64,000 nt of DNA from NCBI GenBank assembly GCA_005793345.1, contig SXSU01000112.1, positions 1 to 64,000 of the forward strand. The letters are read 5' to 3'. Under the pieces are notes generated by a model. That model saw only the letters and a program-made list of their open reading frames with translations. It was not told the origin of the DNA and did no database searches. This DNA is from Bdellovibrionales bacterium (GTDB lineage Bacteria > Bdellovibrionota > Bdellovibrionia > Bdellovibrionales > Bdellovibrionaceae). Below are positions 5,386-62,717 of this stretch, in pieces (position 1 is the stretch's first letter; every line of letters starts with the position of its first letter). Position numbers and translations under genes: made by a program.

Positions 5386-5454
5386 AAACTATTAAAAATA
5401 AATTAAAAAAGAGAATAACGGCGAAAGATTTTGTCCAGTACTATCGCAAAGCGA

Positions 5455-5584
5455 TCAAACTTTAGTTTGGATTTTCATAATTAGGGGTGATTCAAAAATC
5501 GCCCCAAACAAACAGAAAAATAATTGCTTATGATTATGTCTGATATAATCGCGAAGCGATCAGACTTAATCATTAGCAATTATT
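5455..5584. repeat. three-hairpin dispersed repeat, near-full copy
   Basis: It holds the right half of hairpin A (AGTTTGGATTTTCATAA), hairpin B (GGGGTGATT/AATCGCCCC, one T-G pair) and a complete hairpin C with arms of about 26 bp at 5519-5544 and 5559-5584. The outer stem reads AATAATTGCT here instead of AATAACTGCT elsewhere. The opposite arm carries the matching A, so the pair has changed as a unit. It sits between the convergent murI and 5589 genes, a place suited to a bidirectional terminator. Confidence 0.85.
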
Positions 5585-23269: not shown

Positions 23270-23683
23270 TTATTTTAACTGAGGATGTTTTTTTTCAAAG
23301 GCCATGCGTTGCTGACTGGAATTTAAAATGCGTGTTAACACATTGGGAGTCAGACCCTTATTTCCGCAAGAATCAGCGCAGGAAGAAAATCCATAGGGAC
23401 ATTTTTCCCAGCATGAACTTCCACCACCGCAGGAATCAGCACACGATGTAAAACCATAAGGACATTTATCCCAACATGCACTTCCGCCACCACAAGAGTC
23501 AGCGCAAGAAGTAAAGCCATAGGGGCATTTATCCCAACAACTTCCACTGCTACCGCCACTTCCCCCAACCTCTTCACATAGATATTTTGTTCCATCCTTA
23601 TCAAGATAAAATGAATCCGCATTTACATTAAATGATGTTAGCGGAATAAAAATTAGCGCAATATAAATTAAAAATTTTCTCAT
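23270..23683 (-). CDS. small secreted protein with three Cys-rich tandem repeats
   Basis: The protein has 137 residues with a signal peptide (MRKFLIYIALIFIPLTSFNVNA). It holds three tandem copies of the 20-residue unit CWDKCPYGFTSCADSCGGGS, the last copy slightly varied. Each unit has four Cys, giving a disulfide-rich array, followed by a charged C-terminal tail (FEKKHPQLK). GGGGGATCT lies before the ATG. The DNA repeats are 60 bp and could change copy number by slippage. No family is recognised; a secreted binding or structural module is possible. Confidence 0.75.
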   Translation of the reverse strand: MRKFLIYIALIFIPLTSFNVNADSFYLDKDGTKYLCEEVGGSGGSSGSCWDKCPYGFTSCADSCGGGSACWDKCPYGFTSCADSCGGGSSCWEKCPYGFSSCADSCGNKGLTPNVLTRILNSSQQRMAFEKKHPQLK

Positions 23684-56135: not shown

Positions 56136-56238
56136 CAAACTTTTTTGTTAAGCCTTAACTTCGCATTTATTACTCGGCACTAGACAAAACCCCTAACGCA
56201 AGACAAAACTACATTATACTATTGTCAAGTCAGTCCTT

Positions 56239-56303: not shown

Positions 56304-57275
56304 ATGAGTGAACTTGTTCAGCCAGCAAAATATTTTCTTAATCAAAACGAGATCGCGCAACTTCTCGGCATTTCGCCTCAAGCTGTATCTATTGCGGCAA
56401 AGCAACGAGGGATTGATTCTTTCAAAGATGGCAATAAAGCAGCCTATAACCCAAGCGATGTTCGAAGTTACTTAGAGTCACGAGGAGTGAAATATCCTCA
56501 ACGTGTGATTGCATTTCAAATGCTTAAAGGTGGATCTACAAAAACCTCGACAGCCTTTAATCTGGCTGTTCGCTTGAATCAATATGGCGCAAAAGTTTTA
56601 TGTGTTGATTTAGATCCACAAGGAAATCTAACTGATAGCTTTTGTTATGATGTCACAAATGAACCTGTTTTTTTTCACGTCGCAAATGGAGAGTGTTCAC
56701 TAAATGATGCTATTATAAATGTGAGTGATAGTTTAGATTTAATACCATCAGATTTTGAAAACTCTACTCTTGATTTTTTAATAACAAGCAAGAATAGAGA
56801 TCTTCGAAATTTTATTGCAAATATTATTGATCCCGTGAAATCACGTTATGACTTTGTCATTATAGATTGTAACCCTTCACTCTCACCTTTAAATATAAGT
56901 ATAGCTTTAGCTTCGGATCAAATTTTAATTCCTGTCAATCCTGATAAATATTCTGCAAAAGGATTAAAGAAAACTATCGAAGAACTGACTCGTATTGGAA
57001 AAGAATTTAAACACACATTTGATTATAATTTATTATTTACATTATATGATGGTCGCGAAGCTACTTCACAAAAGTATTTAATTGAGTATGGTACACATTA
57101 TCGAGATAGATTGCTATCTACTGTAATTAAGAAAAACGCTGATGTCAAAAATGCTATCGATCAAAAAAAGACTATTTTTGATTTTAAAAAGGCGGCTGCA
57201 AGAGAAGATTTTGATTTACTTGCACAAGATATGCTTGGAATTCGTAACATTGGAAAAAAAGAGGGACGAGCTTAA
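56304..57275 (+). CDS. ParA-family ATPase with N-terminal HTH
   Basis: The protein has 323 residues. Residues 11-57 form a HTH (LNQNEIAQLLGISPQAVSIA), then the deviant Walker A KGGSTKTST (K75, K80), VDLDPQGN and the later FVIIDCNPSLSPL complete the ParA motifs. HTH-ParA proteins of type Ia plasmids partition DNA and repress their own promoter. The promoter here is flanked by an inverted repeat. The next gene starts 17 bp downstream. Confidence 0.9.
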   Translation: MSELVQPAKYFLNQNEIAQLLGISPQAVSIAAKQRGIDSFKDGNKAAYNPSDVRSYLESRGVKYPQRVIAFQMLKGGSTKTSTAFNLAVRLNQYGAKVLCVDLDPQGNLTDSFCYDVTNEPVFFHVANGECSLNDAIINVSDSLDLIPSDFENSTLDFLITSKNRDLRNFIANIIDPVKSRYDFVIIDCNPSLSPLNISIALASDQILIPVNPDKYSAKGLKKTIEELTRIGKEFKHTFDYNLLFTLYDGREATSQKYLIEYGTHYRDRLLSTVIKKNADVKNAIDQKKTIFDFKKAAAREDFDLLAQDMLGIRNIGKKEGRA

Positions 57276-57304
57276 TTTAAATAATTGAGCCTGTGATTAT
57301 TACT

Positions 57305-58912
57305 ATGCCAAGTTTAGATGAACTTTTAAATAAAGCTCAAAAGCAGAATAAACCTGCCGAGCAAAAAAAGTTTTCAAGGGGTAATCGACCTGATACTCTA
57401 ATGAATGCATCAATTGATGAGTCTGTTAAAACTCAGCAAATAGTCACTCCTGCGCCTATTTCAGAAAATGCTCCTCAAACTGTTAAAACCAAGAAGGTCC
57501 AGGATAAAGTCAGCACTCAACCAGTAAAAGAAAGTTCTTTGCTAGAGCAAAAACTAATTGTTTCTCAATCAAATTCAGAATCTATAAATTTAAATTCACC
57601 AAATAAAACTGATGTCGAAACTATAGTTGAAATACAAGCTACGCAAAATTCATCTTATAACAGCATTAAAGACTCTCTGTTGACTCAGAATGAGAGCTCC
57701 CATGATGCTTCACCTGTTTTCAACCTTGAGGCTTTAAATGAGTTAAAAAATCAAGCAAGCACTAATTCTAGAGAAAACCTAGAGATAATCGAGAGAAAAT
57801 CTAGAGAATTAAACCTAGAGAAAGGTGACTTCTCTAGGTATTCTCTAGAGAATACCCAGAGAATACCTAGAGAAATTGACGATATACCTAGAGAAAACCT
57901 AGATTTTCTCCAGGTTAAACCTAGAGATATACCTAGAGAATACCTAGAGAAATCCGAGAGAAAAAATAGTGAATCTGGAGTTAAAAAATATTCGATTTCA
58001 CACTTAGTAGGGTTACAAAAAAAAGTTTTATTTTCATTATTCCAATTGTGCCGAAACAACAACGCAAATTTTACCAAAGATATTTCTGGAGGTGAGTTAG
58101 CACTTATCTGTGAAACAAGTATGTACAATGCTCAAAATGCAGTTAAAGAACTTATCAAAAAGCATCTTTTGTTTAGAAGAGAATTTAAAGCTGGAAGGGG
58201 AGGATATACAAAATATGAAATTGATCAAGATACGTATTTAGAGATCTTTGAATATCTAAAAGCGAATGATCCAATTCTAGAGAAAACCCAGAGAAAACCT
58301 AGAGAACAATCTAGAGAAAACCTAGAGAAAGTGCCCTCTAGTAAGTTAGTAAGTAATAATAATACTAACTTTCTAACTAGGGAGGAAGAACCAATTTTAC
58401 AAAATTCAAGTTTTGATGTTTCTTCGATCGATGTTTCACGACTTGGCCAATACGGTATTACTCGTAAACAAATTCAAGATATTCAAAATCAAAAATTAAT
58501 TTTTACAACTTTTCAACTCCAAGATTTCGTCGAGCGTTTTGAAGTCTATGCCTCAGATCCAAAAAATATTTCTGGCATTCGAAGTGTACCCGGTATGTTT
58601 GTGAAAATGGCTCAACTGGCTGCAGATGGAAAAGATCCACTCATCGGAGTTGAAACTGAGACCGATCGTTTAATTCGAGAACAACTTGAACGCATAAAAA
58701 AACAAAGAGAAGATCGCTTAGAAAAAGAAAATGAATTGCGTGAATTAGAGTTTGAAACTTGGGTTGAATTACTTGATGAAAATGAACGCGATCAACTAGT
58801 GCCGCCTAATGGAATTCTCAAAGCGGGAAGTCAATCTCAAAAGATTATGTTAAAAAATCATTTCATCGAAATGGTTTGGCCAAAGGTTAAAAACTCCCTT
58901 GGAAAAAATTAA
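57305..58912 (+). CDS. winged-helix replication/partition-type protein with iteron-like motifs in its gene
   Basis: The ATG at 57305 or the GTG at 57293 may be the start (535 or 539 residues). A long low-complexity N-terminus is followed by a repetitive charged region (REN/REYLE, REIPRE) at about residues 155-220. A winged-helix fold comes next (LQKKVLFSLFQLCRNNN... GGELALICETSMYNAQNAVKELIKKHLLFRREF) and then a charged C-terminus. The winged helix and the place after parA suggest a Rep- or ParB-like DNA-binding protein. The encoded repeat corresponds to CTAGAG motifs in the DNA, probably a binding array. Confidence 0.7.
   Translation: MPSLDELLNKAQKQNKPAEQKKFSRGNRPDTLMNASIDESVKTQQIVTPAPISENAPQTVKTKKVQDKVSTQPVKESSLLEQKLIVSQSNSESINLNSPNKTDVETIVEIQATQNSSYNSIKDSLLTQNESSHDASPVFNLEALNELKNQASTNSRENLEIIERKSRELNLEKGDFSRYSLENTQRIPREIDDIPRENLDFLQVKPRDIPREYLEKSERKNSESGVKKYSISHLVGLQKKVLFSLFQLCRNNNANFTKDISGGELALICETSMYNAQNAVKELIKKHLLFRREFKAGRGGYTKYEIDQDTYLEIFEYLKANDPILEKTQRKPREQSRENLEKVPSSKLVSNNNTNFLTREEEPILQNSSFDVSSIDVSRLGQYGITRKQIQDIQNQKLIFTTFQLQDFVERFEVYASDPKNISGIRSVPGMFVKMAQLAADGKDPLIGVETETDRLIREQLERIKKQREDRLEKENELRELEFETWVELLDENERDQLVPPNGILKAGSQSQKIMLKNHFIEMVWPKVKNSLGKN
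57768..58341. repeat. CTAGAG motif arrays inside the coding sequence (candidate iterons)
   Basis: CTAGAG occurs at 57768, 57779, 57801, 57815, 57845, 57867, 57888, 57921, 57933 and 57944, with reverse copies at 57832 and 57843 and near-matches at 57790, 57856 and 57899. A second group lies at 58277, 58299, 58311 and 58322 with a reverse copy at 58336. Many spacings are near 11 or 22 bp, one or two helical turns. TTCTCTAGAGAA (57841-57852) is a perfect palindrome. Confidence 0.7.
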
Positions 58913-60920: not shown

Positions 60921-61838
60921 GTGAGTAAGATTTTATGTATGACATCTTCAATGATAATTATACCAACTACCCAGCAAGATCCTGAAAAAGTTCATACAGA
61001 TAATATTCAAGTTTTTTCATTTTTGAATCAGCCGTCTATTTCAATAGGATCAAAAGAGAATTACGAGAGAATTCTTCGTGATTTTTTCTCATTTTATAAA
61101 GGTATCGATATCAAATCAGTGAGGACAGCGCACATCACACTTTATTTAAAAAATTTAAAAGTTGCAGCTTCAACAAAGAATTTGCACTTGAGAGTGATTG
61201 GAGCTTTCTTTAACTTTATAGAAAAAACAAAATATATTTTAGAAAATCCCGTAAAGCCACTTAAACAAGAACGAACACCAGAAAAATTGCAGTTTAAGAT
61301 TCTTCACCGAGATCAAATTGATCGAATGATCGAGTTAGAGAATGTTAATCAAAAAAAACTTTTACTAAAAATACTTTATTTTACAGGACTTCGAATTTCA
61401 GAAGCGATTTCATTAAAAGTAAAATCTTTTCGTATTTCTGAAATTGGAGATGGAGCCTACATGACAGTTGTTGGGAAAGGTGTAAAGGTGAGAACTATAT
61501 TTATACCTGAAGGTTTTTTTAATGAAGTGAAACTATATATAAAAGAAAATTGCAATGAAGATGGCTATTTATTTTTTGATATTGAATACAATAAACCAAT
61601 TAGTCGTTTTCAAGCTTTGCGTATTATAAAATCGGCCGCAAAAAAAGCAAAAGTAAATCCAATACCAAGCCCTCATTGGTTTCGTCATACTAATGCAACC
61701 CATTCTTTAGAGATGGGTGCTCCTATCCATGTTGTTCAGGCAACTCTTGGGCATTCATCAATCACTACAACAGGAAAATATTTGCATGCTGCTAAAAATG
61801 AATCGAATGTTGAGTATTTGATGAAAAAAATAAAATAA
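60921..61838 (+). CDS. tyrosine recombinase/integrase (XerC/D type)
   Basis: The protein has 305 residues (GTG start; ATG 60939 is an alternative). The core-binding domain (SKENYERILRDFFSFYKGID...) precedes the catalytic domain. R158 (TGLRISE), K187 (VGKGVKVR), H252 and R255 (HWFRHT), H278 (LGHSSI) and Y287 (GKYLHA) form the full catalytic set, so it should be active. It may mobilise or resolve the accessory module. No tRNA or clear attachment site was found next to it. Confidence 0.9.
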   Translation: MSKILCMTSSMIIIPTTQQDPEKVHTDNIQVFSFLNQPSISIGSKENYERILRDFFSFYKGIDIKSVRTAHITLYLKNLKVAASTKNLHLRVIGAFFNFIEKTKYILENPVKPLKQERTPEKLQFKILHRDQIDRMIELENVNQKKLLLKILYFTGLRISEAISLKVKSFRISEIGDGAYMTVVGKGVKVRTIFIPEGFFNEVKLYIKENCNEDGYLFFDIEYNKPISRFQALRIIKSAAKKAKVNPIPSPHWFRHTNATHSLEMGAPIHVVQATLGHSSITTTGKYLHAAKNESNVEYLMKKIK

Positions 61839-62183: not shown

Positions 62184-62717
62184 ATGGATGTAAAAATGGT
62201 GTTAGAAGAATTCGATCGGTATTTAACATAACGAGGTCTGAAATTCGAGGCCGTTATTATCGGTGGAGCAGCCCTTAATATTATGGGTATTATTTCCAGA
62301 GAAACCCGAGATGTAGATTGTTTAGATCCCCAAATACCAGATGATATCCTAGTTGCGGCAGAGCACTTTAGCAATGAAAATACTAAATTCAATTTGGCAA
62401 AAAAATGGATTAATAACGGTCCTGATTCTTTAAAAAAGGATCTTGATTCTGGGTGGTACTTACGAACCCAAGTAATTTTTAATGGTAGGGCTATTCTTTT
62501 TCGTACCCTTTCACGAATTGATTTATTGAAATCAAAATTATTTGCCTATTGTGACAGGGATCTTGATTTTCAAGACTGTTTGAAAATGAAACCAAGAATC
62601 GAAGAGCTTAATGAGTGTTACAAGTGGGTTGCAGAGCGGGATGGAAACCCAGGATGGTTGAAAAACGTAGAAAATCACTTTAATCAAATTAAAAAAGAGC
62701 TTGGTTATGGAAAATAA
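62184..62717 (+). pseudogene. nucleotidyltransferase (DUF6036-like), interrupted by one stop codon
   Basis: The frame from the ATG at 62184 reads MDVKMVLEEFDRYLT, then TAA (62229-62231), then RGLKFEAVIIGGAALNIMGI, and runs on to 62717. IIGGAALNIMG with SRETRDVDCL is the GG-x-A...T-x-D-V-D nucleotidyltransferase core seen in DUF6036/AbiEii-like proteins. A one-base change of GAA to TAA (LTERGL) would explain the stop. The next gene overlaps by 11 bp. The family contains toxin enzymes of toxin-antitoxin and phage-defence pairs. Confidence 0.65.

Follow-up and report, generated by a model that had tools for sequence, protein, structure and literature searches.

Several replication systems keep their origin inside the gene of the initiator that reads it. 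In lambda O, four 18-bp iterons and an AT-rich element (ori-lambda) are placed between the segments encoding the DNA-binding and C-terminal parts of the initiator, and no ParA is involved (PMC3349717); SPP1 gp38 and its oriL exemplify the same principle among the DnaD-like organizers (PMC6316719). RepA_N proteins of the pSK41/pSK1 type employ a winged-helix (wH) N-terminal domain (NTD) to bind four Rep boxes within the rep gene, the ori-coding part of which specifies a linker that is followed by a separate C-terminal domain (CTD), and chimeric combinations of wH plus origin with a different CTD are represented by pPR9 (PMC5703833). In repABC plasmids a ParA gene is located upstream of the initiator gene repC, which contains an AT-rich oriV devoid of iterons, and a ParB gene (repB) is present as well (PMC3155836). 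A further arrangement of this kind is proposed here for a gene in a 64,000-nucleotide stretch of a Bdellovibrionales bacterium assembly (contig SXSU01000112.1, positions 1 to 64,000; hereafter the window). The gene encodes a wH protein, follows a parA gene and is punctuated by arrays of the motif CTAGAG. Judging from sequence comparisons and structure predictions, the long form of this gene family, as represented in the window, is probably a ParA-linked initiator that carries its origin in its own coding sequence.

The open reading frame (ORF) spans 57293..58912 on the + strand and encodes 539 aa from a GTG start, with an ATG at 57305 as an alternative start. The original prediction described about 17 CTAGAG motifs in two groups within this gene, spaced to keep DNA helical phase rather than a protein repeat frame, and interpreted them as iterons of an intragenic origin or as a centromere. 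The count holds exactly: positions 57768-58341 contain 17 copies, 14 on the + strand and 3 on the - strand, with 12 of them at 57768-57949 and 5 at 58277-58341, while an 18th copy of the ORF is found at 57542. Successive + strand copies are separated by 11, 22, 14, 30, 22, 21, 33, 12 and 11 bp and then by 22, 12 and 11 bp, and the same 11-bp unit is recovered by Tandem Repeats Finder. The copies occupy two + strand reading frames and both strands, and therefore do not represent a protein repeat. In 2000 synonymous-codon shuffles that preserved the protein and its codon usage, CTAGAG occurred 3.9 times on average and at most 10 times, compared with 18 in the actual ORF, and the 8-mer CTAGAGAA, present 14 times, had a mean of 2.0 and a maximum of 7. 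The entire window contains 32 copies of CTAGAG against 13.9 expected, a number reached in 0 of 100 shuffles, and the 3.96-Mb genome assembly has no other cluster of the 12-mer CTAGAGAAWACC. Because of the excess over synonymous shuffles and the lack of any other genomic cluster, the array is taken to be real, and it appears to be selected as DNA.

Array 1 (57768..57962, + strand) comprises about 16 copies of CTAGAGAA(A/T)AC at steps that are multiples of ~11 bp, mostly on the + strand with a few inverted, and its encoded product is a low-complexity linker. It is followed by the segment encoding the wH DNA-binding domain (57998..58243, + strand; residues 236-317) and, immediately 3' of this, by array 2 (58277..58330, + strand), which consists of five motif copies of the array-1 type 11-12 bp apart. 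An inverted-repeat (IR) element (58336..58382, no strand), of which the final minus-strand CTAGAG (58336-58341) forms part, separates array 2 from the segment for a helical CTD (58409..58909, + strand; residues 373-539).

Relatives of the gene were detected in 14 of 197 related genomes, including the window's own, and by profile search in 27 of 369 genomes. Searches with tblastn matched Bdellovibrio plasmids and, with additional family members as queries, well over 100 plasmid records of Piscirickettsia and a few from Legionella/Fluoribacter; a single-protein scan of genome contigs returned no relatives, and tblastn against a phage collection gave no match. Bdellovibrio sp. HAGR004 carries a family member on each of its five plasmids (pBdHAGR1-5). 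The ParA gene is a constant companion of the family, being located immediately 5' in 37 of 37 assessable loci. In the window it lies ~20 bp upstream of the initiator ORF (56304..57275, + strand), and its product has an N-terminal helix-turn-helix (HTH_17), matches Pfam AAA_31 (6e-42) and resembles the PHROG ParA-like partition protein (2e-53).

Phased arrays are a property of the family as a whole, as shown by a compared set of 39 family genes from metagenome-assembled genomes (MAGs) of Bdellovibrionota and from Bdellovibrio and Piscirickettsia plasmids. Identical 8-mer pairs at a lag of 11 bp number 406 across the family, against a mean of 17.4 and a maximum of 42 in 100 protein-preserving shuffles, and at lag 22 there are 377 against 13.6; this bears out the helical spacing that the original prediction had proposed to measure against codon-shuffled controls. 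Recurrence is also seen at lags 12, 23, 33 and 34, and the non-helical lags 14, 16, 17, 19 and 20 yield 0-1 pairs each. The total number of pairs surpasses all 100 shuffles in 38 of the 39 genes, the exception being locus L074, with L032 and L036 weak. The repeats are concentrated in the DNA encoding the N-linker (11598 pairs; maximum of 60 shuffles 2045) and the mid-linker (721; shuffle maximum 232), with a slight excess only in the CTD segments (177 versus 164), and no repeat excess is found in the wH segments (39; shuffle maximum 56) or in the accompanying ParA genes, which served as control (568; shuffle maximum 594). Most members have their motif copies spread over two or three frames.

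Nearly every member possesses its own motif, for example AATACCGTTTAA, ACTTAGCAAA, AGCGTGAC, GGGAACAAAGT, TAGTTCAAA or ACCCGATAA, present in ~10-38 copies that mostly share one orientation and flank the wH segment on both sides. What is conserved across the family is the phasing of the arrays and their placement around the wH segment, not the motif sequence. This is the reverse of relatives retaining a peptide repeat while losing the DNA motif or its phasing, the outcome that was named in advance as contradicting a DNA-level array: the 11-bp phasing and the position are kept while motif and peptide change. The divergent Desulfobacterota relatives L140, L142, L151 and L160 have an array period of 12 bp rather than 11 and retain the IR.

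The motifs also differ between replicons that share a cell. Among the five HAGR004 plasmids, array words give 0-2 cross-hits versus 34-67 hits on their own plasmid, and in four MAGs with several members the words are likewise not shared, except for six words in one pair. Comparison of close relatives shows that the CTD is exchanged independently of the wH domain: L043 and L045 have CTDs that are 91% identical, wH domains that are 35% identical and unrelated motifs, L022 and L041 share 85% of the CTD versus 24% of the wH domain, and L035 and L070 have the same motif (cosine 0.81) together with 76% identity in the wH domain and 14% in the CTD. These block exchanges are suggestive of the wH domain as the reader of the motif, and they stop short of proof since wH segment and arrays are physically linked and co-inheritance alone could explain the pairing. 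Over the whole family, motif similarity follows wH identity only weakly (rho 0.15; CTD 0.05) because most pairs are saturated and only near pairs are informative.

Directly after array 2 the family conserves a DNA inverted repeat, TAGTAGTAG-AT-rich-CTACTACTA, with the consensus CTAGTAGTAGTAGT, 4 to about 30 AT-rich bases and ACTACTACTACTAG, in most cases behind a short C-rich stretch, and located at a median of 101 bp 3' of the wH segment. In the window the arms TAGTAAGTTAGTA and TACTAACTTTCTA are separated by 11 AT-rich nucleotides (58339-58375) and enclosed by CTCTAG...CTAGGG. The IR usually codes for SSSS...TTTT, with a strong bias in codon choice: AGT accounts for 94 of 147 Ser codons in the IR versus 219 of 954 elsewhere, and ACT for 67 of 78 Thr codons versus 195 of 687 (p about 1e-22 in both cases). 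In several members, the window included, the IR is kept while the encoded peptide differs. The hairpin score is above all 30 synonymous shuffles in 18 of 36 genes, the window only equalling its shuffle maximum, and the most AT-rich 40 nt lie in or overlap the IR-bearing linker in 4 of 6 genes examined, not including the window and pBdHAGR1. The TAG-repeat arms resemble the DnaA-trios of the DnaA basal unwinding system, and nothing beyond a resemblance is claimed. DnaA-trios have the sequence 3'-GAT-5' (PMC8287927), and in the oriC of B. bacteriovorus they are reported beside DnaA box 1, from which a short GC-rich stretch separates them (PMC5124646).

A scan of 85,000 species genomes for the DNA pattern AGTAGTAGTAGT-N4-34-ACTACTACTACT alone returned only 25 loci; in about 20 the repeat falls inside an ORF that fits the family profile, and ParA was detected at 18 of these. 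Some of these loci overlap the set already found by protein search, and as the patterns were derived from the family the recovery of members is partly circular, which does not apply to the specificity of the scan or to its DnaD-type matches. The record titles name Oligoflexia, Bdellovibrionales, Gammaproteobacteria, Legionella, Chlamydiae, Tissierellales, a PVC bacterium and Desulfobacterota MAGs; the Desulfobacterota loci are divergent (E 5e-5 to 3e-13) and phased at 12 bp, and binning errors are possible. Two matches (L144, L161) were set aside as simple TAG repeats. Two Clostridial loci (L143:5839-6969 and L147:3738-4910, both on the - strand) carry the IR in genes for DnaD-type helicase loaders, identified by a DnaB_2/DnaD domain (4.5e-17) and by phrog_186, DnaD-like helicase loader (3.6e-31). 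In these genes, which have no ParA, the IR sits between internal repeats and the C-terminal domain, and by sequence the TAG/CTA inverted repeat is thus common to another type of initiator. A 16-mer scan of viral contigs added six members, and ParA was detected at five of these loci. Two IR elements on one contig (L155:4570-4614 and 5446-5493) lie in two neighbouring family ORFs, as if the module had been duplicated, and two wH-type proteins of viral contigs without a recognised family match (L163:5907-6812, L167:6422-7213) have the IR between their halves.

AlphaFold2 predicts a wH topology for residues 236-317 with pLDDT above 90, a helical CTD that reaches pLDDT 95 when modelled alone, and between them a disordered stretch whose position corresponds exactly to the DNA of array 2 and the IR. 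In Foldseek searches of the Protein Data Bank (PDB) the wH model matched MarR-like wH proteins and the RepA_N NTD 4pt7 (E=0.0096), with many MarR proteins scoring equally; DnaD and the RepA_N NTD are among the weak PDB matches, and lambda GpO-type proteins, a replisome organizer, Replication protein C and an initiator were matched at model level with low TM-scores. Some of 22 members weakly match phrog_428/678/391/345 (replication initiation, O-like; best 2e-7), and one viral-contig member matches the DnaD-like loader phrog_186 over wH and CTD (8e-8). Pfam searches returned no RepA_N domain (PF06970) at E<=1 for the window protein and four Bdellovibrio plasmid members, and no ParB domain for the window protein and the Bdellovibrio plasmid members.

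Set against the described intragenic origins, the family would work like lambda O, SPP1 gp38, RepA_N and RepC, but it has no RepA_N domain, no DnaD-type fold match for the CTD in the PDB and no repB. It shares with RepA_N the iteron-type repeats in the linker-coding segment and the same kinds of exchange between domains, whereas arrays of 10-38 copies with 11-bp spacing that flank the wH segment, a ParA in the operon, mostly Gram-negative hosts and the conserved TAG/CTA inverted repeat set it apart. Lambda O is comparable in having iterons and an AT-rich element within the initiator gene, and differs in that the 11-bp phased repeats are here also found upstream of the wH segment. The DnaD-type proteins of Clostridia have the IR in the same place, but the window protein has no significant sequence match to the SPP1 gp38 type, is linked to ParA and has a two-sided array. 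Like repABC, the module has its ParA gene ahead of the putative initiator gene. Type I/III partition centromeres (parS, parC, tubC) likewise have ParA next to them, and their direct-repeat arrays are recognised by a DNA-binding protein such as a small wH protein; in the present family, by contrast, the array lies within the gene of a two-domain initiator-like protein and has an unwinding-type element beside it. No description of the family was found in the open-access literature, the subscription literature lying outside the search.

The proposed initiator would have a DnaD/lambda-O-like organisation of winged helix, disordered linker and helical CTD. Its wH domain would bind the 11-bp iterons that flank the segment encoding it, with a protomer at each helical turn, and the protomers would build a nucleoprotein filament that melts the AT-rich TAG/CTA inverted repeat just 3' of the array, after which the CTD would bring in the host helicase or primase. 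The linkers may hold the iterons because they are the protein parts free to vary. The motif/wH pair of each replicon would give compatibility, and the ParA of the same operon would segregate the replicon. Phased direct repeats and an adjacent AT-rich IR are features of iteron origins, and on the six complete long-form plasmids (pBdHAGR1-5 and p5PS2) the minima of the detrended GC skew lie 0.5-1.8 kb from the gene centre (Fisher p=0.007). Together with the conserved IR and the initiator-like matches, this lends support to the iteron part of the original prediction; its centromere part may be true as well.

Several observations weigh against an intragenic origin. The GC-skew support is modest, with offsets from the gene of up to 1.8 kb, and pBdHAGR4 encodes a borderline Replic_Relax protein that could be another replication factor. 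The window protein has no PHROG match and only sub-threshold Pfam matches. We infer rather than recognise a recruiting role for the CTD, because its model has no fold match in the PDB at E<1. The IR is not evident in three members (L028, L044, L074), and DnaA boxes are not enriched beside the family IR (4 versus 9.5 expected), leaving their association with it unsupported. Chromosomal genes on the contig of the window copy make its present use as an origin uncertain.

The alternative that survives best refines the intragenic origin rather than competing with it: the same arrays would serve as initiation iterons and, bound by the initiator, as a centromere pulled by ParA. This additional role has a chance only slightly short of even. 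The two-gene operon has no separate ParB adjacent, about 10-38 sites are many more than most iteron origins have, and partition-like short forms exist. These short forms (L083, L084, L085 and L088, on Piscirickettsia and Legionella plasmids) consist of ParA, linker and a C-terminal wH domain, and look like partition-only versions. They lack CTD and IR, some carry arrays, that of L. anisa having no significant one, and their plasmids also encode other wH-domain or Replicase-domain genes.

That the arrays are a centromere only, the wH protein being a ParB-like centromere-binding protein for ParA and replication beginning elsewhere, is unlikely. The invariable ParA neighbour and the make-up of the short-form plasmids, on which the GC-skew minimum is not near the gene (p=0.44), are in its favour. 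Its 11-bp direct repeats, moreover, resemble those of known par centromeres such as R1 parC. However, the long forms, window included, add a CTD, a second array and the IR, which recurs in a helicase loader gene without ParA, and their GC-skew minima are near the gene; a further recognised initiator is missing from the small long-form plasmids, the larger pBdHAGR3 proteins scanned containing no known Rep domain.

It is very improbable that the arrays are merely operators through which the encoded protein represses its own gene or controls copy number, with no part in origin or centromere function. Autoregulation is common among Rep and Par systems, and one possible site, CTAGACAAAACC with one mismatch, lies upstream of parA (56180..56191, + strand), although this isolated candidate operator could have arisen by chance. 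The arrays, on the other hand, are intragenic, flank the wH segment on both sides and reach 38 copies, and the sites were not seen to cluster around a promoter. Least credible of all, and rejected here, is a disordered low-complexity linker with the DNA pattern as a by-product: the linkers are predicted to be disordered and some members have peptide repeats, but the motif occurs in 2-3 frames and on both strands, neither lag 11 nor lag 22 is divisible by 3, and the signal is lost in synonymous shuffles.

The intragenic origin proposed for the window may today reside in a chromosomal setting. Its contig, 102 kb in length, carries chromosome-like genes (hydrogenase, NAD synthetase, murI-type), and near the ParA-initiator module are genes for a tyrosine recombinase (60921-61838) and a DUF6036 nucleotidyltransferase (62283-62717), a similar ORF being present downstream of the relative L028. 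Because the recombinase and nucleotidyltransferase genes stand beside chromosome-type genes on the same contig, plasmid integration is suggested, and the window copy may be an integrated or former plasmid. Elsewhere in the window, a 63-bp tandem repeat of 2.8 copies (23364-23539) lies in frame (21 aa) within a short minus-strand ORF. On plasmids of P. salmonis, NZ_CP039084.1 and other records, including NZ_CP011852.1 of LF-89, contain a long and a short form on the same plasmid and are possibly fused replicons, and several of them also encode phage structural genes.

The evidence points to an unrecognised plasmid family with a replication origin, and perhaps a centromere, inside the gene of the protein that reads it. 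The most inclusive form of this proposal is put forward tentatively, its chances being clearly below even: one intragenic array would be both origin and centromere, its motif and the domain that reads it would change as a pair from one plasmid to the next, the paired DnaA-trio-like TAG/CTA inverted repeat would be a general unwinding element of unrelated initiators, and the ParA-linked family would extend across Bdellovibrionota, Gammaproteobacteria and MAGs assigned to other phyla. A recognised origin is missing from many plasmids of Piscirickettsia, a fish pathogen, and of the predatory Bdellovibrionota, and a study of the LF-89 plasmids of P. salmonis reports neither an origin nor iterons (PMC6963756). 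For such plasmids, NZ_CP011852.1 among them, the family offers a specific location, in genes whose current annotation reads 'hypothetical protein'. Its matched DNA motif/winged-helix pairs form a natural series in which the divergence of recognition specificity can be studied, it offers a test of plasmid compatibility, and the conserved IR may be a marker of origins in initiators with little else in common.
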